Source: Gammaproteobacteria bacterium (GTDB lineage Bacteria; Pseudomonadota; Gammaproteobacteria; Thiohalospirales; Thiohalospiraceae). Taken from it: 58,817 bases of DNA. Location: the NCBI GenBank assembly GCA_029883105.1, contig JAOUJT010000002.1:1-58817 (forward strand), written 5' to 3'. Positions 2,541 to 55,853 of this stretch are shown here, in pieces. The notes under the pieces were generated by a model. That model saw only the letters and a list, made by a program, of their open reading frames with translations. It was not told where the DNA came from and searched no databases. The position numbers were made by a program, and so were the translations under genes. Each line of letters opens with the position of its first letter. Within the stretch, counting starts at the first letter, position 1.

Positions 2541-3131
2541 ATGCCACGTGTAATTTATATTCACGGTTTCAACAGCTCGCCACAGTCGCATAAGGCAAGG
2601 ATTCTGACAGAACGTATGGCACATTTTGGTATCCTAGGCGATCTGAGGGTCCCAGAGCTTCCTGCAGATCCAGAACAGGCGATGGCACTATTACAGGGCT
2701 GTGTGGAGGCCTGCGGCGAGATAATACCGACACTTATAGGCAGTTCTTTGGGAGGCTACTACGCTGCCTGGCTGGCAGAGAAATATGATCTTAAGGCGAT
2801 ACTGGTTAATCCTGCCATCTATCCTTATCGTTTGTTGGAGGCTTATCTGGGTGAAAATGAAAATTTGTATACAGGTGAGAGATATATCCTGAAAGAGCGT
2901 CATGTGGCGGTGATGAAATCCTTCCAGATGGAAAAAATTAACAAACCGGAAAATTATTGGCTGTTACTGGAAACTGGAGATGAGATACTCGATTACCGTG
3001 ACGCAGTGAAAAAGTTCGCAGACAGCAATAAGACTATTTATCAGGGTGGAGCACACGAATTTCTCAATTTTGAAAGCATGCTGGACGATATATTAAGATG
3101 TTGCGGCTATGAGCCAGAGTCTTTCCAGTGA
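2541..3131 (+). CDS. yqiA: YqiA-like alpha/beta-hydrolase esterase
   Basis: A 196-residue serine esterase of the YqiA/UPF0227 family. The N-terminal strand and oxyanion-hole region read VIYIHGFNSS. The nucleophile elbow is GSSLG with Ser69. The acid is in ETGDEILDY and the histidine in GGAHEF near the C-terminus. E. coli YqiA hydrolyses short-chain acyl esters in vitro; its true substrate is unclear. In E. coli the neighbours are yqiB and cpdA. Here yqiB follows directly, but cpdA (cAMP phosphodiesterase) is absent from the pair. The length is normal for the family (about 190 residues). Confidence 0.88.
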   Translation: MPRVIYIHGFNSSPQSHKARILTERMAHFGILGDLRVPELPADPEQAMALLQGCVEACGEIIPTLIGSSLGGYYAAWLAEKYDLKAILVNPAIYPYRLLEAYLGENENLYTGERYILKERHVAVMKSFQMEKINKPENYWLLLETGDEILDYRDAVKKFADSNKTIYQGGAHEFLNFESMLDDILRCCGYEPESFQ

Positions 3132-3147
3132 GACAAAGAGCGGAGTG

Positions 3148-3579
3148 ATGAGAGCAAATAATCGGCCTCTATATATTTCCACTATGAGGGTATTTGAGAT
3201 GAATTATCTCAAACTCACTCAACTGATCCCGGATCTGCATGAGGCAGAAGACAATTTGTTGTACGCATTTCGTGATCCACAGGGCGTGATCAATATCCAT
3301 CTGCGAGAGCGTGGACCCTATACGGCAACCCTGGATGTAACCCACCAAACACCCGGTTTACAACGATTGATACCGGATATACAAATAGCCGTAAAGGTTT
3401 ATTATGATGCTGAGCTGGCTGAGGTGGTGTGTTACCAAAATCAGGATGGCTTCCAGCCTAAAAATAGCTATCCAAATTCACGTATGCATCATAAATATGA
3501 AAAGGCCGATCTTAATCGGTTTTTAACAGAGTGGCTGGATTATTGTCTTAAACAAAAGGCAAGTATATCCTTGGCATAA
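3148..3579 (+). CDS. yqiB: DUF1249 family protein YqiB
   Basis: A 143-residue cytoplasmic protein of the DUF1249 family, function unknown. It shares with E. coli YqiB the opening EMN..L..L.P, the central YHDA/YYDAELAEVVC strand, the YPN motif followed by H, and the C-terminal FL..WL.YCL. I chose the ATG at 3148 because GGAG lies just before it and the resulting N-terminus aligns with the E. coli protein. An earlier ATG at 3109 overlaps yqiA by 23 bases. The yqiA-yqiB pairing agrees with other gammaproteobacteria. Confidence 0.85.
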   Translation: MRANNRPLYISTMRVFEMNYLKLTQLIPDLHEAEDNLLYAFRDPQGVINIHLRERGPYTATLDVTHQTPGLQRLIPDIQIAVKVYYDAELAEVVCYQNQDGFQPKNSYPNSRMHHKYEKADLNRFLTEWLDYCLKQKASISLA

Positions 3580-3697
3580 TCTCGTTATAGAAGTAATGCC
3601 ATATATTAAAATAAACAGTGCCTATATGGTTTTATATTAAGTATAGATATATTAGATGATTCATGAATAGTTAGGGAGTGAGTATCATGGAGGGGCT

Positions 3698-5854
3698 ATG
3701 CTAAAGCGTTTACTTGCTTCAAAGTTGTTTATTATTGTGTCATTTCTAGTGGCAACACTAATTTTTTCAAGTGCCATAAGCTCGCTGACAGTTGTGAAAA
3801 GGATGGAGTTGTGGTCATTTGATACACGCATGGCATGGTTGAGAACAGATGCCGTCATTGATGATGATGTAGCCATTATATTAATTGATGAAGCCTCACT
3901 TAAAGCCATGGACTCAACATATGGCAGATTCCCTTGGCCTCGAACTGCCTATGCTGAAGTACTGGACTTCCTCTCTCTGGGCAACCCCAAGGCAGTAATA
4001 TTTGATCTGTTATTTACTCAGCGAGAATTAAATAAATTCAAAAACTCTTATAGTGGTCCCGATCAAGACTTTATTGATGCGACAGCTCGATACCCGAATG
4101 TTATTCACGCAGCACAAATGTTTCACGATTCAACAATTAAGTCAGTCAAGTCTGAGGATGTTCTGCAATTACCATCCGATCTAGTAAGGAAATTTGGCAC
4201 ACCGGGAGACTTTGAGGATACGATACAGAGAAATAATAGTTATGTTGTTCCTATGGAAGAACTTTGGCGAGCGGCATCGGGGTTAGGGATTGTAACTATC
4301 GCATCTGACATTGATGGTATCTATCGACGTGTTCCCTTCTATCATGAGTATGACAATAGTTACTACCCTTCACTATCTATAAGTCCGATTAGCCATTTAC
4401 AGACAATAGAGAATTCGCAACTTAGGGATGGCTTCGGCTTAGAGAATTATCCGCCAGGAACTGAGCATGTTATTAATATGTATGGCGACTATAAGCCATA
4501 TTCAATATCCGGTATTTTCGCCTCATGGAATCAAATAAAAAATGGTGATTTTGAAAACATATTGATTTCGCCAGAAGAGTTTGAAGGTAAATATGTGTTT
4601 GTGGGCGCGAGTGCGGTTGGACTGGATGACATAAAAGCAACTGCCATCTCAAACGTGTCACCAGGCGTAACTATACATGCGATGGCCTTGTCTAATATAC
4701 TGTCTGGGGACTCGCTGCGTGAAATATCAAGAAGATATACTACGTTTCTGGGATTATTTATTGCCGGAATATCTTTATATCTAATCCTCTACAGTAAACA
4801 TTATCTTCTTTCCTATTTGGTGCCGAGCTTATTAATTCTAACATTTGTCTACATGTCGTTTGTACTATTCTCAATGAATTACGTTATTGAAATTGTAAAT
4901 CCTTTTTTGATTGCGATCATTTCCATTTTTATGGCAGCGTCTTATAAGGCTATCACTGAAGGTAAAGATCGCCGGCGTGTAAAACATATGTTTTCACAAT
5001 ATGTATCCCATGCAGTTTTGGATAAACTTTTAGATACATACGAAGATACAATTAAAGCGGGAGATGGTACCCGCGAAAAAATAACGATACTGTTTAGCGA
5101 TATACGTGGATTTACCAATCTATCTGAGGCGCTGACACCAGAACAGGTGGTAGAGTTATTAAATATATATCTCAGTGAAATGTCCAATGTCATCATGAAA
5201 TATGAAGGTACCATCGATAAATACATCGGTGATGCAATCATGGCTTTTTGGGGGGCCCCAGTACTGATAGATGATCATGCACACAGGGCATTGGTGGCGA
5301 GTCTGGATATGATAAATGGATTAGTCAATGTCAACGAGAAACTAGCACTAAAGGGTTATGGGGAATTGAAGGTAGGTATAGGCCTTCATACAGGGAGTGC
5401 CGTATTAGGCAATATCGGTTCCGAAAATAAACTCGATTACACGGTGATTGGTGATGCGGTAAATCTTGCTTCGAGAGTTGAAAGTCTCACCAAGCAATAC
5501 GGCTGTGCCCTGTTAGTAACAGAAGATACGAAAAATGAAATCAGTGAAGATTTTCATCTGGGTGTGGTTGATGCCGTACAGGTAAAGGGTAAGAAAATCC
5601 CGATAAAGTTGTATGCCCCGCCGGTCGATATCAATGGTAGACTGCTAACAAATGATGCCGCTGAGCATGATAAAATCTGGATGGATAAAGGCTTTGAGTT
5701 GTACGTTGCACGCGACTGGTCTGCGGCGATAGATGCCTATAATAAGTTACAAAATAAAGTGTTATCAGATACTTATGTTAAAAGGTGTGAGCATTACATA
5801 CAACAAGCACCTTTAGATGAATGGGATGGAGTGTTTGTCCATACTTCGAAATAG
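3698..5854 (+). CDS. CHASE2-domain membrane adenylate cyclase
   Basis: A 718-residue class III cyclase that makes cAMP from ATP. Order: an N-terminal membrane helix (about 10-30), a periplasmic CHASE2 sensor (about 35-330), three membrane helices (about 345-425), then the cyclase domain (about 455-625). Catalytic residues are visible: metal aspartates D468 (FSDIRGF) and D512 (GDAIMAFWGAP), adenine-selecting pair K508/D580, and transition-state residues N589/R593. The K/D pair argues for ATP rather than GTP. The C-terminal tail (about 650-718) looks helical and TPR-like. GGAGGGG precedes the ATG. It heads an operon of envelope proteins, which suggests that the periplasmic sensor reads an envelope or secretion state. 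Confidence 0.92.
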   Translation: MLKRLLASKLFIIVSFLVATLIFSSAISSLTVVKRMELWSFDTRMAWLRTDAVIDDDVAIILIDEASLKAMDSTYGRFPWPRTAYAEVLDFLSLGNPKAVIFDLLFTQRELNKFKNSYSGPDQDFIDATARYPNVIHAAQMFHDSTIKSVKSEDVLQLPSDLVRKFGTPGDFEDTIQRNNSYVVPMEELWRAASGLGIVTIASDIDGIYRRVPFYHEYDNSYYPSLSISPISHLQTIENSQLRDGFGLENYPPGTEHVINMYGDYKPYSISGIFASWNQIKNGDFENILISPEEFEGKYVFVGASAVGLDDIKATAISNVSPGVTIHAMALSNILSGDSLREISRRYTTFLGLFIAGISLYLILYSKHYLLSYLVPSLLILTFVYMSFVLFSMNYVIEIVNPFLIAIISIFMAASYKAITEGKDRRRVKHMFSQYVSHAVLDKLLDTYEDTIKAGDGTREKITILFSDIRGFTNLSEALTPEQVVELLNIYLSEMSNVIMKYEGTIDKYIGDAIMAFWGAPVLIDDHAHRALVASLDMINGLVNVNEKLALKGYGELKVGIGLHTGSAVLGNIGSENKLDYTVIGDAVNLASRVESLTKQYGCALLVTEDTKNEISEDFHLGVVDAVQVKGKKIPIKLYAPPVDINGRLLTNDAAEHDKIWMDKGFELYVARDWSAAIDAYNKLQNKVLSDTYVKRCEHYIQQAPLDEWDGVFVHTSK

Positions 5855-5874
5855 CCTCAATCAGGGAGACAAAG

Positions 5875-6366
5875 ATGAAAGCTATACATAGCACAATTAT
5901 ATTATTGTTGTTGTCGATATTATCGAATGTTGTCATTGCTGCAGACACCAAGTATGTGCGTAGCAAGGTCGCAAAGATATTCAGCGAGGCCTCATTCGCC
6001 TCCTCAGCTTTAAAGACCTTAAAACAGTCAGAAGAGGTTGATCTCATCCGCCAGCAAGGCTCATGGTCGAAAGTGAAGAGTGGGAATGTCGAGGGCTGGA
6101 TGCCATCTTTACTGATTAGCAATTCTAAACCACTAGCCAGGAAGACAATCACCTCTGACCCGGAAAATTCAGATATGCAGAACAATGCTCGTCGCCGTGC
6201 ATCGACGACAACTGTAGCGGGTGCTGCTCGTGGACTTCAGTCCGACGAGAATGAGGTCAACCCTAGTAGCGCGAATTATGAACTGTTGCAGAAGATAGAG
6301 AATAACGTCTATACCGATGAAGAGATCCGGCATTTTATGGAAGAGGGTTTAAAATCAAGTGAGTAA
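5875..6366 (+). CDS. Secreted SH3-domain protein
   Basis: A 163-residue exported protein. A signal peptide spans about residues 1-22, ending near NVVIAAD. A bacterial SH3 (SH3_3-type) domain follows at about 25-80, with the WSKVKSGNVEGWMPSLLI core typical of the fold. The rest is a polar, probably disordered tail with a short helix. Bacterial SH3 domains often bind peptidoglycan or proteins in the periplasm. I chose the ATG at 5875 (AGGGAGAC upstream); an earlier in-frame ATG at 5821 lies inside the cyclase gene and gives no signal peptide. The next gene starts 8 bases before this one ends, so they are translationally coupled. Confidence 0.82.
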   Translation: MKAIHSTIILLLLSILSNVVIAADTKYVRSKVAKIFSEASFASSALKTLKQSEEVDLIRQQGSWSKVKSGNVEGWMPSLLISNSKPLARKTITSDPENSDMQNNARRRASTTTVAGAARGLQSDENEVNPSSANYELLQKIENNVYTDEEIRHFMEEGLKSSE

Positions 6367-7204
6367 AACGAAGTTCATACTACTGATGTTTTTATGCAGT
6401 GTGGTAGTACAGACGGTATATTCATCACAGCGAAATGATGCTCGCGCCCGTTTCTCTGAAGTGACAAAGACCGAAGCCGATCAGACCGCCGATATCAAGG
6501 AAGAGATCAAGGTTGGCCGTAAAATAGCAGCAACTATCCTGGGACAATACCCGTTGTATGATAAACAGGATATTAATGACTATATCTCCAGAGTGGGACA
6601 CTCCTTGACCATTAATTATGGTCGTGAGGAGTTGGAGTATTACTTTGCAATATTAGATACCGATGAGGTAAATGCCTATGCCTCACCGGGGGGCTATATC
6701 TTTGTCACAAGAGGCTTGATGCAACAGCTCAGAGACGAGTCGGAGTTGGCGGCAGTTCTGGCGCATGAAATCATCCATGTAGATAAGAAACATATCGTTA
6801 AGGCGCTTAATATTCAGGGTTATGCCGATAGCGAGCAGCGTGGTGTGGTAACATTTATCGGCGGGATTGCGGTATCGGCTCGGGTAGCCTTTAATCAGGC
6901 GGTAGAATCGGCCATTCATGTTCTATTTTCTGAAGGCCTACAGCAAGAAGACGAATTTGAATCGGATACCCTGGCACTACAGATACTCTATCAGGTGGGG
7001 TATGATCCATTTGCGTTGGAACGGGTGCTAGATAGAGTATCCAATCTGGATAACCATGAAACGGCAGTGGTAAGAAAAACCCACCCTTCTTTTAAGGAAC
7101 GAATAGAAAAGATTACCAATGATTATCCTCAACTCGGTATCACCAGCGGCCATGGGGTAAAGGGTAGGATACGGTTTAAGGACAGAACCTCTGGATTAAC
7201 ATGA
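6359..7204 (+). CDS. Periplasmic M48-family zinc metalloprotease
   Basis: A 281-residue M48 peptidase of the BepA/LoiP type. The signal peptide covers about the first 22 residues. The zinc motif HEIIH has ligands H136 and H140 with catalytic E137. The third ligand is E201 in EFESD, the usual E-x-x-x-D arrangement downstream. The family acts on misassembled outer-membrane proteins. A start at GTG 6359 overlaps the SH3 gene. The stop overlaps the start of the following outer-membrane protein gene in an ATGA junction, so a role in assembly or quality control of that porin is a reasonable inference. There is no C-terminal TPR domain, which makes it shorter than BepA. Confidence 0.88.
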   Translation: MSKTKFILLMFLCSVVVQTVYSSQRNDARARFSEVTKTEADQTADIKEEIKVGRKIAATILGQYPLYDKQDINDYISRVGHSLTINYGREELEYYFAILDTDEVNAYASPGGYIFVTRGLMQQLRDESELAAVLAHEIIHVDKKHIVKALNIQGYADSEQRGVVTFIGGIAVSARVAFNQAVESAIHVLFSEGLQQEDEFESDTLALQILYQVGYDPFALERVLDRVSNLDNHETAVVRKTHPSFKERIEKITNDYPQLGITSGHGVKGRIRFKDRTSGLT

Positions 7205-8535
7205 TAAACAGAAAAATTCTATTTTCACTGGCTCTGCTGCTAGTGATACCCGCACATGCCGATCAATTCCACTATAATGATATTCTTGTTGGCGATAGGG
7301 CCAGTGGTATGGGTGGGGCCTATACAGCCATTTCAGATGATCCTACCGGTATGTTTTACAATCCCGCGGGTATCGTCCTAGCGCCAAATCGAAGTACCTC
7401 ATCCAGTTCACTGGCTTATCAGAATAAGACCAAAAGATATGAATCGGTCATTGGTGTTAACGACTGGCTGACAACATCCAGCTCTTTTATACCAAACTTC
7501 TTTGGTATATTACAGCCCATAGGTGATGGTTACTTTGGGCTTTCCTATGTTATGAACGAGTCGGTGGATCTGTCACAGGCACAGACATTTACCTTTCCAA
7601 TTCCTGTTAATATTGATCCCAATGCCCTGCCGCCATTAGAAAAATTCTCGATCAATTATGATGAAGAGGATACGATTTATAAGGTTGGGCCCAGTTATGC
7701 ACGCCCTTTATCTGATAACCTATCCATCGGTGTAACCTTATACCTTCATGCTCGCAACCGTAATGTCAGTTTCAATCAGGTTGCCGAACTCTACAATTCA
7801 GCTCAACCCGCTGATGAACCCTATCCTGATTTGGGCTACTATGACTGGACCAATCAGCAAATCTCACAGTCAGAATTGGGTTTTAATCCCATCATTGGAT
7901 TGATGTGGTCACCGTCAGAGCACAGTTCCTTAGGCCTGACCCTACAGAAAACAATTATCTTCAGTGCGGAAACCATCACGGAATGTACAAAACAGACGCC
8001 AGATGGAATTGCGGATTTAATCTGCGGAGAAGTCGTTAATCCCGGCACGGATCCAGCTAATCCATTGGATCCAGATAATCCACCCACGGGAAATGATTAT
8101 GCGCATTTTGTTAAAACCTCGAATGGTTACGCGGATCCACCATGGCAGTTAGGGATGGGATGGGCAAGTTTCCCAAATAACAAGCAAGTATTTTCTGCCG
8201 ATGTGAATCTCTATTTTGGCGGTTCAAACTTTCCAACCTGGAATGCCGCTATGGGCTATGAACACTATTTAAGTTCCAGATGGAATACGCGCCTAGGCCT
8301 GTTTACCAATAACTCCAACCAGGGTGTTCCCACTGGGGTCAATGGCTATGAGAAAATCGATGAGTTAGGTTTGAGCCTCAGTTTAGGACGCTTCACAAGG
8401 ACCTCGTCGGTCTCTCTGGGAGTGTCGTATCTGGCTGGTAGAGGTACTAGGGGAGGGATTTCTTCTGTTTCACCTATAACGACCGTAACCAGTGACTCGT
8501 TAACGCTATATTTGACCGCATATTATACAAGCTAG
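7201..8535 (+). CDS. FadL/OmpP1-like outer-membrane protein
   Basis: A 444-residue outer-membrane beta-barrel with a signal peptide cleaved after PAHA (about residue 20). The mature N-terminus has the family signature GMGGAYTAISDDPTGMFYNPAG, seen in FadL/OmpP1 and PorV-like proteins that carry hydrophobic molecules or assist secretion. The body shows alternating polar and aromatic strands and the C-terminus ends LTLYLTAYYTS. The ATG overlaps the M48 protease stop by four bases. It is the last gene of the operon, and its stop codon touches the stop codon of the convergent HD-GYP gene with no base between. The substrate is unknown. Confidence 0.8.
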   Translation: MINRKILFSLALLLVIPAHADQFHYNDILVGDRASGMGGAYTAISDDPTGMFYNPAGIVLAPNRSTSSSSLAYQNKTKRYESVIGVNDWLTTSSSFIPNFFGILQPIGDGYFGLSYVMNESVDLSQAQTFTFPIPVNIDPNALPPLEKFSINYDEEDTIYKVGPSYARPLSDNLSIGVTLYLHARNRNVSFNQVAELYNSAQPADEPYPDLGYYDWTNQQISQSELGFNPIIGLMWSPSEHSSLGLTLQKTIIFSAETITECTKQTPDGIADLICGEVVNPGTDPANPLDPDNPPTGNDYAHFVKTSNGYADPPWQLGMGWASFPNNKQVFSADVNLYFGGSNFPTWNAAMGYEHYLSSRWNTRLGLFTNNSNQGVPTGVNGYEKIDELGLSLSLGRFTRTSSVSLGVSYLAGRGTRGGISSVSPITTVTSDSLTLYLTAYYTS

Positions 8536-10092
8536 TTAGTCTATATCTATCTGCTCATCGGATAGATACTCCTTGGCATACTGGAGATAAACCTTTTTCT
8601 GGATAAACACATCATATATATCCGGATCGATATGTCCGGTTTTCTGCATGTTATCCAGTATGTCTAAGGCCTTGGACAGTTTCATCGGCGACTTATAAGG
8701 TCGATCATTTGCTGTGAGAGCCTCAAAAATATCCGCGATGGCCATGATTCTGGCCGGTACTGACATTTCATCCCGTGTAAGTCCTTTAGGAAAACCCTTG
8801 CCATCTATTCTTTCGTGGTGTCCCCCTGCATATTCAGGGATACTCATGAGGTGCTTCGGAAAGGGAAGTGATTCAAGCATATTGATGGTGACATTGATGT
8901 GATTGTTAATCATCTTCCGTTCTTCGTCAGTGATGGTGCCTTTGTTGATCGATAGGTGATGGATTTCATCCTCAGTTAGAATTGGCTGAGGGGCTCCGCC
9001 AATGATGATGTTGTATTTTTCTGCAAAACGAAGAATCTTTTCAATCGCCTCACTGTCCGTGTATTCACCACCCTTATTCGTGTTGATGATGTGTTCCAGA
9101 GTACTATCTATTTCTTCTGCTTCACTTGGATTTGGAGCGGTGTTTGTTGTAGTGTGGCTTGTAACATTCAAGTCTCGTTTTAATATCTCAAAACGAAGCT
9201 TTATCAATTCTATTCGATCTATAGGCATTTCGAGTTTAGTGGATTTTTCCATCACCCGATCCGGTGTCGTTAATTTTCCACAATCGTGTAGCCATGCCGC
9301 AGTTTCCAGTTGATATAAATCATCTTCACTGATTCTGTAGTCAGAAAAATATCCATCAGAAGTGTTATTGACTGCATGGGCAATCATCATTGTTATAACG
9401 GGAATGCGGCGGCAATGACTGCCGGTATGTGCAGACTTTTCATCGATAGTACTGGCGATCATTTTCACCAGTGAATCGAAAAGTTCCTTCATTCCGTCAA
9501 TAAGCTGCTTATTTGTCAGGGCTACTGCTGCCTGCGAGGCCAGTGACTCTGCCAATTGTTGATCTTCATTGCTGAAGGGCTGGATGGATGTATTATCTTC
9601 AGAGCGGGCATTAATGAGTTGTAGTACACCAATGATGTCGTTTTCATGATTTTTCATTGGAATAGTTAAGAATGAAGTAGAACGATAGCCTGTTTTTTTA
9701 TCAAAATCATAGGTGCCGGTAAAATCATAGCCATTGGCATCATATGCATCAGCGATATTAATGGTTTGGTCATTTAATACCGCACTGGTTACCACCATTT
9801 GTTTATTCGGAGTGCTATCTGCAAGGTATAGGGGGATAGAGTCAAATGGGATCGAGATGCCAGTACTCCCTCCCATGGCATAATTTAGTGAGTCTGTTCT
9901 CACTATGACCATTTCTAACTCTTTATGATCATTGATTAGGTAAATGGTTCCTCCATCCGCATTGGTCAGCTCTTTAGCGCCCAGGAGGATTTTCTCAAGC
10001 AGGCGGTCTGAATCTTTCTCAGTTGATAGGGAAATTCCGATACTGTTGAGTAGGTGCACTCTATTCAACAAATTTTCATAATTAGCAATCAT
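8536..10092 (-). CDS. GAF and HD-GYP domain protein (probable c-di-GMP phosphodiesterase)
   Basis: A 518-residue cytoplasmic signalling protein. A GAF sensor domain occupies about residues 15-200. The HD-GYP phosphohydrolase follows: HDCGK (H269, D270), then HHERIDGKGFPKG beginning at H425. HD-GYP enzymes hydrolyse the second messenger c-di-GMP. Two departures are visible. The GYP triplet is GFP, which other active relatives tolerate. The HD and HHE motifs are about 155 residues apart rather than the usual 60-70, through an extra helical, Thr/Asn-rich stretch. No membrane segment is seen. The gene faces the adenylate cyclase operon, so cAMP and c-di-GMP enzymes meet here. Confidence 0.88.
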   Translation of the reverse strand: MIANYENLLNRVHLLNSIGISLSTEKDSDRLLEKILLGAKELTNADGGTIYLINDHKELEMVIVRTDSLNYAMGGSTGISIPFDSIPLYLADSTPNKQMVVTSAVLNDQTINIADAYDANGYDFTGTYDFDKKTGYRSTSFLTIPMKNHENDIIGVLQLINARSEDNTSIQPFSNEDQQLAESLASQAAVALTNKQLIDGMKELFDSLVKMIASTIDEKSAHTGSHCRRIPVITMMIAHAVNNTSDGYFSDYRISEDDLYQLETAAWLHDCGKLTTPDRVMEKSTKLEMPIDRIELIKLRFEILKRDLNVTSHTTTNTAPNPSEAEEIDSTLEHIINTNKGGEYTDSEAIEKILRFAEKYNIIIGGAPQPILTEDEIHHLSINKGTITDEERKMINNHINVTINMLESLPFPKHLMSIPEYAGGHHERIDGKGFPKGLTRDEMSVPARIMAIADIFEALTANDRPYKSPMKLSKALDILDNMQKTGHIDPDIYDVFIQKKVYLQYAKEYLSDEQIDID

Positions 10093-10575
10093 TTTACACC
10101 TGCCAAAACTAGTGATATGCCGTCAGTGTCGGAACCATTATGTTGTATACGACGTTCTAGGTACAGTGTCTTGTCGAGGGTTGTTGCGAATATATCATTT
10201 TCGTCAAAGTAACTTTATATTCTCCGACGAGTTAATCCAGATATTGAAAATGCTGAATGCATAATAGAAAGGGAATTAGCTGGTAGGTGACGCAAGCGTA
10301 TTAGTTTGTGGCCCGGATTTGTTAATTCTATTTTCTGTAGGGATTAGAATGAGTGAAGCGAAATAGTTTGTCCATAATGATTTCTGTCTGGGAATTTATG
10401 CCAGATATACATAGTCGCAGTGCGACAGCTCCTTAAATACGTAGCACATTCTTATACGGGGTCCTATGAGTCATCATTGTAACCAGTGCCAATGTGACAA
10501 TCGTTCATGATAAATTTATCGCCAGTAAACATGCCCTAGTATCCATATTTTGAGCATAAAAAAGGGTTGCCTATC

Positions 10576-10600
10576 GGCTGGGCTGGGCTGGGCTGGGCAG
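10576..10600. repeat. GGCTG pentamer tandem repeat
   Basis: Four perfect GGCTG units and a fifth altered unit (GGCAG) in direct tandem. Such short perfect tandems can vary in copy number by slipped pairing. It lies just upstream of the palindromic repeats and not near a start codon. Confidence 0.9.
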
Positions 10601-10620
10601 TGCAGTGTTGGGGGATGAAT

Positions 10621-10691
10621 CGACACTTAGAACCTCCTGCCGGAGCTTCAATAAATGTTACCCAAAGGGCACACGACCCTACGCCTCGCTA
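10621..10691 (+). repeat. Dispersed palindromic repeat, copy A
   Basis: About 71 bases starting CGACACTTAGAACCTCC and ending near CTCGCTACG. It can fold as ACACTTA...CTCC/GGAG...TAAATGT. It is about 85 per cent identical by eye to the copy at 54273-54345, including the shared stretch GTTACCCAAAGGGCAC. Confidence 0.8.
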
Positions 10692-10746
10692 CGACACTTA
10701 GAAATTCCTTCAGAGCTTCATTAAGTGCCCCTATGCTTCGCTACGG
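10692..10746 (+). repeat. Dispersed palindromic repeat, copy B (shorter)
   Basis: Directly abuts copy A in the same orientation. It has CGACACTTAGAA, then CTTCAGAG, then CATTAAGTG, and ends CTTCGCTACGG. The outer arms CACTTA/TAAGTG are perfect. It lacks the TTACCCAAAGGGCAC part, so it is an internally deleted copy. Confidence 0.75.
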
Positions 10747-10790
10747 CGACCACGGAACGTGGGCTCTCATCCACAGCGCCGGAACAATAA

Positions 10791-10820
10791 AAAAGGCCCA
10801 ACCTTTCGGCTGGGCCTTTT
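10791..10820 (-). terminator. Terminator of ssrA (works on both strands by sequence)
   Basis: GGCCCA (10795-10800) pairs with TGGGCC (10811-10816), with inner CC/GG pairs and a TTTC loop. A-runs lie on the left and T-runs on the right, so it has a T tract on either strand. It sits 9 bases past the tmRNA CCA end. Confidence 0.85.
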
Positions 10821-10828
10821 TCATTGTT

Positions 10829-11192
10829 TGGTGGAGGCGGGGGGAATCGAACCCCCGTCCGCGAGCACTCCGCCATCGGCTCTACATGCTTATCAGGTCT
10901 ATTTATTTAACTGATGGCTACCCGACAGGCAGGGAAAACTATCAGCGATTTCGGTAAAGTTTTAGCGAATCCACCCCGAACGTGTTTCATCGCGAGCTTG
11001 TTAGAGTCGACCCCTGGAATCTGATGCATACAAGCATGCTTCAGGCAGAGGGCTTTACGCTGGTGTTTAAGCAGCTAAAGCGTAGTTGTCGTCGTTGGCA
11101 ACTATAATTTTTCCAGTATTATTTACGAGGTTACTGAAATCCTCGGCATGCACCTCAGGTTTTGCTACCCACGTCGAAGCCAGGGCGCCCCC
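10829..11192 (-). ncRNA. ssrA: Transfer-messenger RNA (tmRNA)
   Basis: A one-piece tmRNA of 364 nt that rescues stalled ribosomes. On the minus strand it starts GGGGGCG, which pairs with CGCCTCC before the encoded ACCA 3' end (one G-U pair). The T arm reads GGGGGTTCGATTCCCCC. The tag frame at 11099-11067 encodes ANDDNYALAA followed by TAA, with GCC as resume codon, close to the E. coli tag ANDENYALAA. Its partner gene smpB lies 55 bases upstream on the same strand. Confidence 0.97.
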
Positions 11193-49813: not shown

Positions 49814-50134
49814 ATGGGTTCTAGTGTTGCTATTTGGTTGCTAATAGTTGCTGCATTTTTATTGGCTAACCTGCCGTGGTTTACAGAAAAATTGTTTGCA
49901 CTTAAATCATTAAAGAAAGAGAAAGCATTTTCCATTCGTCTTATGGAATGGTTTGCACTCTATTTCATCATAGGTACTGCTGCTCTGGGTTTGGAAACCA
50001 AGTTGAATGGTGTTCGTCACGAGCAAAGTTGGGAATTCTACGTGGTTACCCTATGTCTATTCATGGTCTTTGCCTTACCTGGTGTGATCTTTCAAATTGA
50101 CCTTAAACACCATCTTCGTATAAAAACTGAGTAA
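49814..50134 (+). CDS. DUF2818 family membrane protein
   Basis: A 106-residue protein with three hydrophobic helices (about 7-24, 46-64, 75-97). It matches the DUF2818 pattern (ANLPWF near the start, GVIFQ near the end). Members sit directly after nuoN in many beta- and gammaproteobacteria, which suggests a role with complex I. No function is proven. TGAGGTAA lies before the ATG and it starts 27 bases after nuoN. Confidence 0.85.
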   Translation: MGSSVAIWLLIVAAFLLANLPWFTEKLFALKSLKKEKAFSIRLMEWFALYFIIGTAALGLETKLNGVRHEQSWEFYVVTLCLFMVFALPGVIFQIDLKHHLRIKTE

Positions 50135-50225
50135 TAACATGGTGTTATAGTGCTATCTTGACGAGATCGCTGGACGATTTCGTGTTACACTATTGCAATC
50201 TGCACCAAGATGGCAGGATGCAATT

Positions 50226-52181
50226 ATGTCAATTCGGAATCGTCTATTCCTAATCTTAACCTTGATGACTTTAGTACCATTATTAGTGCTGTTGTTTGGT
50301 GTGGTTGAGAAAGAGGAACAAGAAATACAGTTACGTACCGAACGTGAGTTGGGTACAACATTAAGTAAGATGTCAAATGAGCTACAGGCCTTACTGGATG
50401 CTCAAAAATCACTCGCCCTCGGTCTATCTAAAGTACCTGTGGTACAACACTTCGCCCGCAATGCATTAACCGCTTCTGATCAGCAGTATCAAGTGATGTC
50501 CCAGCAACTGGCGAGCTTTTTTTATGATTACCAGGCTGCGGTGCCGGGGATACAAGGTCTGCGTTTTATTGATGCTAGTGGAAAAACACTGGTAAAGGCA
50601 AAGGAAGGAAAACATATTCCCGCAGAGTTGTATGACCCGGTAATCAAGCGCGCCTATGTCGCCAATCAAATAACAAAAGATTTTTTCCAATCTGCAGTTA
50701 CTACTCAGGATGATGTAGAGATATCCAACTTTGAGTTGGGACAGGTGACGACTGAGGCTGACTTCTGTCCTGCCATGTTACGCTATTCAGTGCCCATAAG
50801 GGCGGATGGAAAGCTACTGGGTGTGTTTGTGGTAAACATGTGGGGCACACGTGTAGATACCGTGGTAGAAGCGACCCTAGGTGGACATTCAAGAAAAGCA
50901 TACATTGCGGAGTTATCTGATAATCAATCTCGAGATGGAATATATTTATACCACAGAGATACAGAGCGACGATTTGCCAACCAATTAGGCAGTAGTTTTC
51001 GTTTCCCGTCAGAAATCGGTGACAAAGAATGGCAATCACTTAAGGTTACGGGCAGTCGAGGAAAGCTACGCCTTGAAAATGGACGTCAATTTTACTTTCA
51101 AAAGATAAGACCCTATGAGAATCGTCTCACCGAGTGGTTGTTAATAATAGAAACCAACCGTGGTGAGATACTTGCCTCTACAGAAGAGATTCGAAAATCT
51201 ATTTTATATCTCCTTGTGGTTCTTCTGGTTACAAGCATTATTACGGTTCGCTGGTTATCTTCCCGTATTGCACGACCGGTGCAACAGCTGGCTACGATCA
51301 TCACAGACTATGCGGATGGCGAAAATACTGTACGTTACCAGGGCAAACGTCAGGATGAAATTGGCAGTGCTGGAAGGGCTTTTAATTACCTCGCCCAAAA
51401 TCTTGAACGTGCAGAGGAAGAGCGGGACAAGGCGGCCCATGCGGCATTACAGTCTGAGCGATTAGCTGCTTTAGGTCATTTGGCCGCAGGGATCGGACAT
51501 GAAATAAATAATCCTTTACAGAATATTCTTTCCTTAAGCTCCTTGATCGATAATTATTTGAAGAATGAAAAAAATGAGGAGATCCAGGAGGATCTTCGTC
51601 TTCTAAAGCAAGAGGGGAAACGATGTGCTCGTATCGTTCAAGGTGTTCTTAACTTTGCACGTGAAAAGGATTTAGTCTGTCAGAAATTTGATTTGGCAAA
51701 GTTGCTGGATGATACTCTGATATTGATGAAGCATAGTATTGAAGTTAACGGAATAAAATTGGATTTACATCTGGACGACAGTCTCGAACTGGAAGGCGAT
51801 CCAAATCAGATACAACAGGTTTTAGTCAATTTGATAATTAATGCTGTACATGCGTCGAAACCAGATTCAACCATCCGTATAAATGGTGAAACGTTAAATA
51901 ATGTAGTCCGACTTGAAATAATAGACCAGGGTTGTGGAATCCCGCAAAGTGAAATTACAAAGGTCTTTAATCCATTTTATACCAGCAAAAAGGAAGGCGA
52001 AGGTACGGGACTGGGTTTGTCAGTTAGTTATGGCATCGTTAACAAACACTCAGGAAGTATACATCTTGAAAATATGCCCGTAGGTGGTATTAAGGCAAGC
52101 ATAGAATTACCTATATCTTTGTCGGAGTTATCCACTTCTCCTGTGCAGCACTCTAGCGTGGATCTTAAATATGTTGGCTGA
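50226..52181 (+). CDS. Membrane sensor histidine kinase of a sigma-54 two-component system
   Basis: A 651-residue NtrB/DctB-type kinase. Two membrane helices (about 7-25 and 325-345) bracket a large periplasmic region (about 30-320) that looks like a double Cache sensor. HAMP follows (IARPVQQLATIITDYADGE region), then the H box GIGHEINNPL with His425, N box VLVNLIINAVHASK, and G boxes DQGCGIP and GEGTGLGLS. The ligand is unknown; small carboxylates or sulfur compounds are possibilities. ATG 50226 is preferred over TTG 50193 because it puts the charged SIRNR right before the first helix. It overlaps its response regulator gene. Confidence 0.92.
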   Translation: MSIRNRLFLILTLMTLVPLLVLLFGVVEKEEQEIQLRTERELGTTLSKMSNELQALLDAQKSLALGLSKVPVVQHFARNALTASDQQYQVMSQQLASFFYDYQAAVPGIQGLRFIDASGKTLVKAKEGKHIPAELYDPVIKRAYVANQITKDFFQSAVTTQDDVEISNFELGQVTTEADFCPAMLRYSVPIRADGKLLGVFVVNMWGTRVDTVVEATLGGHSRKAYIAELSDNQSRDGIYLYHRDTERRFANQLGSSFRFPSEIGDKEWQSLKVTGSRGKLRLENGRQFYFQKIRPYENRLTEWLLIIETNRGEILASTEEIRKSILYLLVVLLVTSIITVRWLSSRIARPVQQLATIITDYADGENTVRYQGKRQDEIGSAGRAFNYLAQNLERAEEERDKAAHAALQSERLAALGHLAAGIGHEINNPLQNILSLSSLIDNYLKNEKNEEIQEDLRLLKQEGKRCARIVQGVLNFAREKDLVCQKFDLAKLLDDTLILMKHSIEVNGIKLDLHLDDSLELEGDPNQIQQVLVNLIINAVHASKPDSTIRINGETLNNVVRLEIIDQGCGIPQSEITKVFNPFYTSKKEGEGTGLGLSVSYGIVNKHSGSIHLENMPVGGIKASIELPISLSELSTSPVQHSSVDLKYVG

Positions 52182-52185
52182 AAAC

Positions 52186-53547
52186 ATGAAAATACTCTTC
52201 GTTGACGATGATCCGGTTACCGGTCGAGTTATGAAACGTCAATGTGGGGATGTAGGATATACCTGTAAAATATTTCAGTCTGCAAAGGAAGGCCTCAAAG
52301 AATTTCAAGAGCATGGTGCAGATCTGATCATTACCGATCTTCGTATGCCTGAAATGAATGGCTTTGAATTACTAACTGAAGTACGTAACAGAGATCCTGA
52401 AATACCAGTCTTGGTGATGACGGGTTATTCATCGGTTGACAATGCCGTCGAAGCAATGAAATGTGGAGCGACTGATTTTATTAAAAAACCTTTTGATTTT
52501 GACGAGCTTAAACTTTTATTAGATAGAACCATGCAAGCTGTCCACTTGAAGAATGAAAATAAATTCCTCAAACAACGGCTGGTTGATTCCGAAGACCGAT
52601 TTGGCATGATAGGTAGTTCGAAGGCAATGGAGCGTCTTTATAATACAATTGATAAGGTTGCTGGTGTTGATTGCTGCGTCATCGTTAGTGGTGAATCTGG
52701 TAGTGGTAAGGAATTGGTTGCTCGCGCCTTACATGATTATAGTCCACGTGTGGAACTCGGACCGTTCGTGGTTATTGATTGTGGTGCTTTGCCCGAAACA
52801 TTGCTGGAGAGCGAGCTGTTTGGTCATGAAAAGGGTTCTTTTACTGGCGCGGTACATCGAAAAATCGGTTTAATGGAGCAGGCCAGTGGAGGCACTCTTT
52901 TTCTCGATGAAATATGCAATATCCCTGATTCCATGCAGATGAAATTAATGCGGGCGATCGAGGCGAGAAAGATAATTCGTGTTGGTGGTGTCGAAGAGAT
53001 CCCTATTGATGTAAGAATTGTCGCTGCTAGTAACCGAGATTTAGAAAAAATGGTGGCAGAGGGGAGCTTGCGACATGATTTCTACCACCGCTTAAATGTC
53101 GTGAATATTCAGGTTCCAACTCTAAATAGTAGGCGAGACGATATAGCCAGATTAATAGACATCTTTGTTCAGGAGTATGTGCAAAGGTACAACCGCAGGG
53201 TTACAGGTTTTGATACAGATTCTGTTGTTCGTTTATGTAATGCTGATTGGCCGGGAAATATTCGCCAGCTTCGGAATGTCGTCGAGCGCTGTGTAATCCT
53301 TGCTGAGTCTGAGGTTATGGAGTGGGATGATCCCGCTCAGCAATATAGTGAGGATGATATACAATCTTTATTCTATCATGGCCAGGATTTTGTCTCGCTA
53401 GATGAACTAGAACGACGCTATATAAAGCATGTACTGAAACACTGTGAGGGGAAAAAGGTCAAGGCCGCTGAACTTCTTGGCATTGATAAAACTACCTTGT
53501 GGCGCAAGTTGCAGCGTTATGAAGTGGAACAGCAGCAGAGGGTGTAA
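52186..53547 (+). CDS. Sigma-54-dependent NtrC-type response regulator
   Basis: A 453-residue activator. The receiver domain (1 to about 120) has acid pocket VDDDP and phosphorylation site Asp51 in IITDLRMPEMNG. The AAA+ domain has Walker A GESGSGKE, the sigma-54 contact loop as GSFTGA (217-222; consensus GAFTGA) and DVRIVAASNRDL. A Fis-type helix-turn-helix ends the protein (KVKAAELLGIDKTTLWRKLQRY). ATG 52171 is an alternative start five codons earlier, overlapping the kinase stop. It should act on the two -24/-12 promoters found just downstream. Confidence 0.94.
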   Translation: MKILFVDDDPVTGRVMKRQCGDVGYTCKIFQSAKEGLKEFQEHGADLIITDLRMPEMNGFELLTEVRNRDPEIPVLVMTGYSSVDNAVEAMKCGATDFIKKPFDFDELKLLLDRTMQAVHLKNENKFLKQRLVDSEDRFGMIGSSKAMERLYNTIDKVAGVDCCVIVSGESGSGKELVARALHDYSPRVELGPFVVIDCGALPETLLESELFGHEKGSFTGAVHRKIGLMEQASGGTLFLDEICNIPDSMQMKLMRAIEARKIIRVGGVEEIPIDVRIVAASNRDLEKMVAEGSLRHDFYHRLNVVNIQVPTLNSRRDDIARLIDIFVQEYVQRYNRRVTGFDTDSVVRLCNADWPGNIRQLRNVVERCVILAESEVMEWDDPAQQYSEDDIQSLFYHGQDFVSLDELERRYIKHVLKHCEGKKVKAAELLGIDKTTLWRKLQRYEVEQQQRV

Positions 53548-53563
53548 TATACACCCTCGAGTA

Positions 53564-53581
53564 TTGCAACATGCACCGCAA
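53564..53581. promoter_or_regulatory. Putative activator site (UAS) for the DsrE-like gene
   Basis: TTGCAACATGCACCGCAA, with outer arms TTGC/GCAA. It shares TGCAACATGCA exactly with the element upstream of soxY, and TGCACCGCA with that element in the other orientation. It lies about 115 bases before the predicted transcription start, a usual distance for an NtrC-type activator. Confidence 0.65.
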
Positions 53582-53662: not shown

Positions 53663-53679
53663 TTGGTATGACCTTTGCT
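53663..53679 (+). promoter_or_regulatory. Sigma-54 (-24/-12) promoter of the DsrE-like lipoprotein gene
   Basis: TTGGTATGACCTTTGCT against consensus YTGGCACGRNNNTTGCW: only two positions differ and the GG-N10-GC spacing is exact. The start would be near 53690, 45 bases before the codon. Confidence 0.8.
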
Positions 53680-53734: not shown

Positions 53735-54199
53735 ATGATAAGAATTAAGAAGTTAATGGCACTGCTGTCTGTAGTGGGTCTTGGTGTTGTACTGTCTGCC
53801 TGCGCTACTGGCGCCAAGATGGAACCTGCCAAGAATGGCTACAACAAGCAGAAGGTTGTTTATCATTTGAACGATATCGATTCTGCTTTTGGTGCCCTGC
53901 GTAACGCTAAGAACCACCTGAATGCTCTGGGTGACGAAAATGTTGAGCTGATTGTTGTTACCCATTCCAAAGGTGCTTTCACCCTGGTTGACGGTTCCAA
54001 GGATGCCAAGGGTCGTGATATGAACGATATGGTAAACAAGCTGTCGAACCGCGGTGTAAAGTTCCAGATTTGTGCCAATACCATTCGTGGTAAGAAAATT
54101 GATAAGACCAAGATTAACTTGAACGCAGAAGTTGTGCCTTCAGGCGTAGCTCAGATCGCTCACCTGGAGCAGATGGGCTACAACTACATCAAGCCTTAA
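53735..54199 (+). CDS. DsrE-family lipoprotein
   Basis: A 154-residue exported DsrE/YchN-fold protein. The signal peptide ends with lipobox LSAC (Cys23), with alanine after it, suggesting the outer membrane facing the periplasm. The mature part has VVYHLNDID, the LIVVTHSKGAF strand, the conserved FQICANTIRG with Cys113, and the family end GYNYIKP. DsrE-like proteins often carry sulfur on such a cysteine, but the role here is inferred. GGAGGAG is ideally placed before ATG 53735; a TTG at 53729 adds two residues. The codons are strongly biased to C-ending and CTG forms, suggesting high expression. It faces soxYZ and has its own terminator. Confidence 0.87.
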   Translation: MIRIKKLMALLSVVGLGVVLSACATGAKMEPAKNGYNKQKVVYHLNDIDSAFGALRNAKNHLNALGDENVELIVVTHSKGAFTLVDGSKDAKGRDMNDMVNKLSNRGVKFQICANTIRGKKIDKTKINLNAEVVPSGVAQIAHLEQMGYNYIKP

Positions 54200-54244
54200 G
54201 CTACAAGCTCAATAAATATAAAGTTTCCTCTTCGTTGATTGTGT

Positions 54245-54269
54245 GGTGCCTTAGGGCACCATTTTTTTT
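54245..54269 (+). terminator. Terminator of the DsrE-like lipoprotein gene
   Basis: GGTGCC and GGCACC form a six-pair stem with TTAG loop, followed by A and eight T. Confidence 0.9.
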
Positions 54270-54272
54270 GCC

Positions 54273-54345
54273 CGGCACTTAGAACCTCCTTCGGAGTTTC
54301 ATTAAGTGTTACCCAAAGGGCACTCGACATTACGCGCAGCTACGG
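54273..54345 (+). repeat. Dispersed palindromic repeat, copy C
   Basis: CGGCACTTAGAACCTCCTTC, then GGAG, then CATTAAGTGTTACCC and AAAGGGCAC. Arms CACTTA/TAAGTG and CTCC/GGAG can fold into a long hairpin. It is closely related to copy A beside ssrA. The next 250 bases to the soxZ terminator hold no gene; a decayed fragment of the same repeat (ATACTTAG..CATTAAG) may lie at 54511-54541. Confidence 0.8.
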
Positions 54346-54597
54346 CAAAGTCCGAAGGGGTTCTTTGAGTTGCAGGGGATCCTGTACGCAGATACGACAC
54401 CTGGCAGCCCCTACTGAGTTTCATCAGATTGTCTCATAGAACACTCATTGTATTAGCCGTTCGGCACATGACCCCACACCTGCGGTGTCAGGGCAACCTA
54501 AGCTCCGCCTCGTCATACTTAGTCCATTAAGCATCCCTACACTCCGGCAACCTATCGGAGATAACTAGGGTCGTTAATCCACAGCTCGTCCAGGCAT

Positions 54598-54626
54598 AAA
54601 AAAAGGTGCATCGAGATGCACCTTTT
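54598..54626 (-). terminator. Terminator of soxYZ
   Basis: AGGTGCATC pairs perfectly with GATGCACCT. On the minus strand the stem is followed by seven T. It lies 21 bases after the soxZ stop. Confidence 0.88.
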
Positions 54627-54646: not shown

Positions 54647-54964
54647 TTACTTGATCTTTGCCTCGGTGCTCTCTTTATTTCCCTGGTTGTCTACCCAGTT
54701 GATGGAAACCGTGTCACCAGACTTGGCACCATTAAAACGGAAGGACATGAAGGGGTTTTTTGATACGGCGGTACCCCACAAGCAGTTCAGAACGGTCTTG
54801 TTGCCGTGCTTACAAATCACTTCTTTAATGAAATGCTCTGGAATCTTCTTGCCTGTCTTTTGGTCTTTGCGCAGGCCAGTTTCCATTGGGTGGAAGATTA
54901 TTGCCTTAACCATTGCACGTTCGCCATCCATCCAGGCGCGTATTTTCATAGGTTTTTGAGCCAT
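54647..54964 (-). CDS. soxZ: Thiosulfate oxidation carrier protein SoxZ
   Basis: A 105-residue partner of SoxY in the periplasmic Sox system. The immunoglobulin-like family pattern is visible: KIRAW, VKAIIFHPMETGLRKDQKTG, IPEHFIKEV, and NPFMSFRFNGAKSGDTVSINWVDNQG. It has no signal peptide, as expected, because it is exported bound to SoxY by Tat. It lies 33 bases after soxY on the same strand. Confidence 0.95.
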   Translation of the reverse strand: MAQKPMKIRAWMDGERAMVKAIIFHPMETGLRKDQKTGKKIPEHFIKEVICKHGNKTVLNCLWGTAVSKNPFMSFRFNGAKSGDTVSINWVDNQGNKESTEAKIK

Positions 54965-54997: not shown

Positions 54998-55471
54998 CTA
55001 ACCGCCACATCCACCAAGTGTTACCTTGACGGCCTTCTTTGCGGAGAAGAGTTTTCCGTTGGATTTCACAACTGCGACAACATCGGATGTTTTGCGCATT
55101 TTAACACGGAGATTGATAAAGCCATCAGTGTCTTTGCCCAGTACATACTTGGCCGCCAGCGGACTGGCATTGTTGGGTATGAGTACAGAAATGGATTCTG
55201 CACCGCTCAGGCTGGTTTCTATGCCAATAGAGACAACGGCACCGTTTTCAGCAATATCCGGGGCATCAACCTTGATGGCAGCAGAGGCCTCAGTTTTACT
55301 AATGCCTTCCAGGCTAGTTAAGGCAGCTTCCATACTGGTTGCAGCAAAGGCTGCACTGGACCACTGGGCCGCCATAACTCGTGATGGCGCAAGAAGGCCT
55401 CCACCTACAGCAATGGCTACGGTACCCACTGCCAGGGAGGCCTTTAAGAAAGTTCTACGACTTTGGTTCAT
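54998..55471 (-). CDS. soxY: Sulfur compound carrier protein SoxY
   Basis: A 157-residue carrier that holds sulfur intermediates on a C-terminal cysteine during thiosulfate oxidation. The twin-arginine signal is SRRTFLKA (residues 4-11), with cleavage near VMAAQ. The C-terminus is GGCGG with Cys155, the swinging-arm attachment site. TGAGGAG lies 9 bases before the ATG. Only soxYZ are here; soxAX and soxB, if present, must lie elsewhere, as in bacteria that use a truncated Sox route with stored sulfur. A sigma-54 promoter lies upstream. Confidence 0.96.
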   Translation of the reverse strand: MNQSRRTFLKASLAVGTVAIAVGGGLLAPSRVMAAQWSSAAFAATSMEAALTSLEGISKTEASAAIKVDAPDIAENGAVVSIGIETSLSGAESISVLIPNNASPLAAKYVLGKDTDGFINLRVKMRKTSDVVAVVKSNGKLFSAKKAVKVTLGGCGG

Positions 55472-55538: not shown

Positions 55539-55555
55539 AGCAAAAGTTATGCCAG
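55539..55555 (-). promoter_or_regulatory. Sigma-54 (-24/-12) promoter of soxYZ
   Basis: On the minus strand CTGGCATAACTTTTGCT against YTGGCACGRNNNTTGCW: two positions differ, GG-N10-GC spacing is exact. The start would be near 55528, about 57 bases before soxY. Confidence 0.8.
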
Positions 55556-55618: not shown

Positions 55619-55645
55619 TGCAACATGCAATGGTGTGCGGTGCAA
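55619..55645. promoter_or_regulatory. Putative activator site (UAS) for soxYZ
   Basis: Contains TGCAACATGCA (55619-55629) and TGCGGTGCA (55636-55644). The first is identical to part of the element before the DsrE-like gene, and the second is the reverse complement of its other half. It lies about 100 bases before the predicted soxYZ start. Confidence 0.65.

Positions 55646-55776: not shown

Positions 55777-55853
<77 letters not shown>

Follow-up and report, generated by a model that had tools for sequence, protein, structure and literature searches.

Where the Sox system is truncated, thiosulfate's second sulfur atom is described as entering the cytoplasm "by unknown means" (PMC11582611); the regeneration of SoxYZ has been ascribed to an unknown mechanism (PMC6335251). 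In Paracoccus/Hyphomicrobium, SoxS, a DsbA-like protein and SoxT are proposed to move SoxYZ sulfur to the cytoplasm (PMC11582611). The DsrE/TusD proteins act in cytoplasmic heterohexamers, DsrEFH of A. vinosum and TusBCD of E. coli. Within DsrE, Cys78 carries a persulfide (binds sulfur) and is essential in vivo (PMC3397948). On the regulatory side, TspS–TspR of Acidithiobacillus caldus exerts sigma-54-dependent two-component control over sox genes (PMC6335251). Searches of the open-access literature brought up no account of a DsrE protein that is exported and linked to SoxYZ. Here, we analysed a 58,817-nt stretch of gammaproteobacterial DNA (the window), in which a small gene, named dsrEL here, encodes a candidate for such a protein. 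The gene and its main parts are as follows.

53735–54199 (+), dsrEL, a predicted DsrE-fold exported lipoprotein of 154 aa (PF02635, AlphaFold/Foldseek and orthologs)
53792–53803 (+), predicted lipobox LSAC, residues 20–23, with Cys23 as lipidation site and Ala at +2 (sequence inspection; ortholog comparison)
54071–54073 (+), codon of Cys113, the candidate persulfide cysteine, in the motif FQICANTI (ortholog alignment and alignment with TusD Cys78)
54243–54262 (+), terminator-like hairpin 3′ of dsrEL (the position fits; hairpins are no more numerous than in shuffles)

The open reading frame is a real gene, preceded by a good Shine–Dalgarno sequence (GGAGGAG). Its product matches the Pfam DsrE family PF02635 at 4.4e-10 (40.2 bits, gathering cut-off 22.7), and an AlphaFold model built with 17 orthologs as input reaches a pLDDT of 87.6, with ~97 over most of the domain. 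Foldseek searches with this model returned 12 PDB matches at E<=0.001, every one a DsrE fold, including 1l1s, 2pd2, YchN, A. vinosum DsrE and one TusBCD chain, so that the modelled protein adopts the DsrE fold. The best sequence and fold matches are MTH1491 (1l1s) and ST0148 (2pd2) (1.7e-8, TM 0.92–0.95 by target), which have a Cys-x-Asn-(Thr/Ser) motif in common with DsrEL; unlike it, their solved chains lack a signal peptide, and both are uncharacterised proteins. DsrEL is closer to this pair than to DsrE/TusD, which it resembles in fold at Foldseek E-values of 4e-4 to 1.5e-3. DsrEFH and TusBCD are cytoplasmic and assembled from partner subunits, whereas DsrEL has a predicted signal peptide and no DsrF/TusC or DsrH/TusB neighbours at the locus; judged by partner genes and cytoplasmic location, it does not belong to this type of complex. 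The DsrE-like proteins of cable bacteria, also considered and set aside, form part of a YTD cluster modelled on DsrEFH. Elsewhere in the same genome, a second exported DsrE-like paralog (L066, G000:C10, 538–1035, −; 27% identical) has a Sec signal, keeps the cysteine and adjoins HD-domain and receiver-domain genes.

DsrEL contains only two cysteines, at positions 23 and 113. The earlier note had singled out Cys113 as a retained cysteine, and this residue, located at a strand end within FQICANTI, is invariant in the ortholog alignment (A1); every one of the 42 orthologs read has it (39 scored by pattern, the remaining three read as ICENT, ICNNT and VCRNT). Aligned with E. coli TusD in hhalign, DsrEL yields a sole block of 12 columns that puts Cys113 on Cys78 at a probability of 0.4%; because this alignment is short and weak, the placement of Cys113 at the TusD/DsrE active-site position is supported, not proven. 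Similarity to the TusD profile is very weak; it is PF02635 and the predicted fold that carry the family link. We infer that Cys113 may perform persulfide chemistry.

The leader (MIRIKK...VVLSAC-A) begins with positive charge, continues with a hydrophobic stretch and ends in a lipobox closed by Cys23, which by inspection makes DsrEL a predicted lipoprotein with a type II signal peptide. An alanine at +2 directs Lol sorting to the outer membrane, and this rule, together with the lipobox, is the basis for the predicted outer-membrane placement. Of the 42 orthologs, 23 were scored as having a lipobox, and one more is borderline (L010, LVTAAC); with the latter entered as a lipobox form, three changes of label are needed on the ortholog tree. 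In one clade, which includes Thiohalophilus, a Sec-type leader replaces the lipobox and the same promoters are kept. As about half of the orthologs carry a lipobox and one clade an ordinary Sec signal, predicted export is constant across orthologs and lipidation variable. The outer-membrane lipoprotein of the earlier note is a prediction that fits the lipobox found here (LSA|C, Ala at +2) and not the orthologs as a whole; an outer-membrane anchor was rejected as the key feature and cannot be essential, since the clade just mentioned uses a cleavable Sec signal under unchanged promoters.

The surrounding genes link dsrEL to a two-component system and to soxYZ.

50193–52181 (+), sensor histidine kinase (dCache_1 below cut-off, HAMP, HisKA, HATPase_c; domain matches, syntenic in relatives)
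52171–53547 (+), NtrC-type sigma-54-dependent response regulator (domain matches; position before dsrEL in relatives)
54647–54964 (−), soxZ (TIGR04490 above cut-off)
54998–55471 (−), soxY, its product bearing a Tat signal and a GGCGG arm at the C-terminus (TIGR04488 above cut-off)

The kinase and regulator genes terminate just upstream of dsrEL, which does face soxYZ, as had been claimed: it is convergent with soxZ and soxY, whose products match the NCBIfam "true" SoxZ and SoxY models above cut-off. A scan of GTDB contigs found dsrEL orthologs in 24 further loci, and the gene is present in one described species, Thiohalophilus thiocyanatoxydans (L021); a plasmid search gave distant matches only. 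The order nuoM-nuoN-kinase-regulator-dsrEL, soxZ-soxY on the opposite strand and rimP-nusA is widely kept. The regulator lies directly 5′ of dsrEL in 21 of 23 loci, 15 of the 18 loci long enough to decide have convergent soxZY downstream, and dsrEL stands beside the kinase–regulator pair even where soxYZ are not adjacent. Extra lipoprotein dsrEL copies in genome G012 (L075, L076) are remote from any kinase–regulator pair and are flanked by genes of no known function. Other elements of the region include a DUF2818 membrane protein after nuoN (49814–50134), which several relatives retain together with the end of the nuo operon, and a tRNA-Met between soxY and rimP (55777–55853), where several relatives also have a tRNA-like sequence. 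The noncoding segment between dsrEL and soxZ (54255–54600) is partially repeated at window positions 10621–10727 and on contig C285 with 83–86% identity; it is a small dispersed repeat that gave no Rfam match.

The earlier note had stated that dsrEL shares the regulatory design of soxYZ, and four upstream elements agree with this.

53565–53575 (+), putative activator dyad (UAS) of dsrEL, TGCA-ACA-TGCA (upstream-region comparison and genome scan)
53664–53679 (+), predicted sigma-54 promoter of dsrEL, TGGTATGACCTTTGCT (score 0.95 of consensus; conserved in relatives)
55539–55554 (−), predicted sigma-54 promoter of soxYZ, TGGCATAACTTTTGCT (score 0.97 of consensus; conserved in relatives)
55619–55629 (−), putative activator dyad (UAS) of soxYZ, TGCA-TGT-TGCA (upstream-region comparison and genome scan)

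Both predicted promoters, at 53664 (+) and 55554 (−), have the GG(N10)GC -24/-12 layout, an upstream TGCA-N3-TGCA dyad conserved in relatives and an NtrC-type regulator encoded at the locus; sites of such score are expected ~0.25 times per whole window. Among 40 dsrEL and soxY upstream regions of relatives, the dyad occurs in 35, against 0.4 expected from shuffles, and no other spacing between 0 and 12 exceeds 7, although these counts are not independent because the loci sampled are related. Dyad and -24 element mostly lie 86–90 nt apart at dsrEL (some lineages range from 73 to 109) and 63–66 nt apart at soxY. Independent evidence for the pairing of dyad and sigma-54 site is provided by the genome scan: a loosened pattern occurs exactly twice in the 3.03-Mb genome, before dsrEL and before soxYZ, and zero times in the reversed control. 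A stricter pattern, applied to 56 relatives, gave eight sites; seven stand before dsrEL or soxY, and one, in G026, before an operon extending to SoxB. The strongest result of this work is that dsrEL and soxYZ appear to form a two-target regulon in this genome, as judged by exact matches, which degenerate sites would escape. Their joint control by sigma-54 is very probable.

This arrangement is like TspS–TspR in using a sigma-54-dependent two-component system to control sox genes. TspR differs in having the activator site TGTCCCAAATGGGACA and in driving the entire downstream sox-II cluster, with no DsrE target reported (PMC6335251). A TspR-type regulon was rejected for the present locus, where TGTCCCAAATGGGACA is not matched and the sites are TGCA-N3-TGCA. 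Control of the second sox cluster of this genome (soxXYZA, contig C370) by the same regulator was likewise dismissed; it has no pair of UAS and sigma-54 site, just TGCA-like half matches upstream of soxX. Related kinase–regulator pairs are found directly upstream of soxYZ in G030 (L071) and G003 (L079), and upstream of the DUF302-cytochrome operon that extends to SoxB in G026 (L072), all with the same TGCA-N3-TGCA and sigma-54 layout; the G030 pair, beside soxYZ, is far from dsrEL. These pairs would constitute a wider family of sox regulators.

To place dsrEL in its metabolic setting, we used 369 Gammaproteobacteria and an ortholog threshold of >=150 bits. Orthologs are present in 24 of these genomes, 21 of which have SoxY and 20 dsrA; all 24 have SoxY, SoxB or dsrA, and SoxY or dsrA occurs in ~200 of the 369 overall (all counts uncorrected for kinship). 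Among 39 searched handles, several of which are the same genome reached twice, SoxB was found in 35 and SoxC, whose presence would make the unloading of SoxY unnecessary, in just 8, in support of a relay. The cytoplasmic end of the pathway in most relatives appears to be reverse Dsr. No dsrA was found in the window's own genome, which is 90% complete. Here, the second sox cluster (L065, G000:C370:4000-23000, 2700–11062), ordered soxX-soxY-soxZ-soxA, adjoins lipoate-ligase (lipoate-assembly), radical SAM, GcvH-like, DsrE2-like and rhodanese genes. Genes of these kinds are typical of the sHdr-LbpA pathway, and cytoplasmic sulfur oxidation in this genome probably proceeds by sHdr and lipoate.

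Several genomes count against a relay that depends on SoxYZ. SoxY and SoxB were not found in G066, which has the kinase, regulator, dsrEL and dsrA; SoxB is absent from three further dsrEL carriers (G268, G383, G389), and G003 has the kinase–regulator–soxYZ module without a close DsrEL ortholog. Strict dependence of DsrEL on SoxYZ is ruled out by G066 and the SoxB-negative genomes. As G066 keeps kinase, regulator and dsrEL without detected SoxY or SoxB, DsrEL serves at least one lineage in the absence of SoxYZ, and since some carriers lack SoxB, one of them also SoxY, SoxYZ cannot be its sole partner. A 5-kb contig of the same genome as the window (L082, G000:C31) carries soxC (572–1846) and then a soxD-like cytochrome (1–609), so the sulfur on SoxY might be oxidised where it is bound in this genome, which also counts against the relay. 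This soxC may be a recent gain or a binning error, because the same-genus genome G001 lacks it.

The codon use of dsrEL had been described as that of a highly expressed gene, and the comparison with ribosomal genes of the same genome agrees: the CAI of dsrEL is 0.83, the top of the window genes, compared with 0.63–0.81 for ribosomal proteins and 0.77 for DnaK. Of 20 genomes compared, 16 have a dsrEL CAI above the leave-one-out ribosomal mean and 11 one that equals or exceeds the highest ribosomal value (printed values rounded). With codon use as a proxy for expression level, the product is predicted to be abundant, and a CAI above that of ribosomal proteins speaks for a carrier made in stoichiometric amounts. 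Alternatively, DsrEL may be a sensory accessory of the envelope, binding a sulfane-sulfur signal on Cys113, modulating the adjacent kinase and so feeding back on soxYZ expression. Its position beside the kinase–regulator pair in 21 of 23 relatives, even without adjacent soxYZ, would suit this role, as would the weak Cache sensor domain match of the kinase and the retention of all three genes in G066. However, the codon adaptation implies far more copies than a sensor accessory requires, kinase–regulator–soxYZ modules occur without adjacent dsrEL (L071, L079), and the extra dsrEL copies of L075 and L076 lie away from such pairs; we consider an accessory of the kinase distinctly unlikely.

Very strong codon adaptation would also suit a sulfur-binding or storage-associated protein of the envelope that binds sulfur globules or polysulfide on the outer membrane and has no specific exchange with SoxY. 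The lipid anchor of many orthologs and the persistence of dsrEL in G066, with dsrA present and SoxY/SoxB not found, are consistent with storage, but the regulon found in this genome comprises dsrEL and soxYZ only, which weighs against it, and the soluble Sec forms of one clade are unfit for a fixed structural coat. We regard this role as unlikely, if still credible. Another role would be catalysis on low-molecular-weight sulfur, such as periplasmic persulfide or thiosulfate conversion, with DsrEL merely co-expressed with SoxYZ. Exported DsrE-like proteins are widely distributed, and the C-terminus of NF052225 (thiosulfate dehydrogenase family) matches the last 21 DsrEL residues in register (E 0.032). 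This match reaches 13.6 bits against a cut-off of 300, and no NF052225 member was found in this genome; kinship with thiosulfate dehydrogenase was rejected on these grounds, and a catalytic role seems improbable.

We return to DsrEL as an abundant, inducible periplasmic sulfane-sulfur carrier that works with SoxYZ upstream of cytoplasmic oxidation, a reading we hold to be about evenly balanced between right and wrong. In this model, DsrEL would be tethered to the outer membrane by lipid in this species. The kinase would detect a reduced sulfur signal and phosphorylate the NtrC-type regulator, which would bind TGCA-N3-TGCA upstream of dsrEL and soxYZ and switch on both sigma-54 promoters. SoxXA and SoxB would load thiosulfate on SoxY and release sulfate; Cys113 of DsrEL would then take the remaining sulfane sulfur from SoxY (or polysulfide) as a persulfide and pass it toward import or storage, freeing SoxYZ. 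The cytoplasmic end would be sHdr–lipoate here (probably) and reverse Dsr in most relatives. Predicted export and fold, Cys113 in all orthologs read, joint regulation and codon adaptation are well supported, and SoxY as donor, the direction of transfer, the next acceptor and the kinase signal are our suggestions. The nearest solved relatives, MTH1491 and ST0148, have no assigned function and count against the relay.

Of the periplasmic relay proposed in the earlier note, a DsrE-fold protein that is exported and joined to soxYZ through gene neighbourhood and a two-target regulon stands, and an essential outer-membrane anchor (Sec-signal clade) and strict SoxYZ dependence (G066) do not; sulfur exchange of DsrEL with SoxY or stored sulfur is plausible. 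Being codon-adapted, predicted to be exported and under one dedicated switch in common with SoxYZ, DsrEL is a good candidate for a protein that unloads SoxYZ outside the cytoplasm. It would share with SoxS, the DsbA-like protein and SoxT a proposed removal of sulfur from SoxYZ, whereas these are thiol-disulfide oxidoreductases and a membrane transporter, not DsrE-fold proteins, in another regulatory setting. It is possible, though on the doubtful side, that the missing periplasmic acceptor of SoxYZ sulfane sulfur, in gammaproteobacteria finishing sulfur in the cytoplasm by rDsr or sHdr, is DsrEL. It would then be the first DsrE-family relay known outside the cytoplasm, with an outer-membrane anchor in some family members and under the control of a two-target sigma-54 regulon. 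The question of how SoxYZ is unloaded thereby gains a concrete gene, dsrEL, a residue, Cys113, and a regulator.
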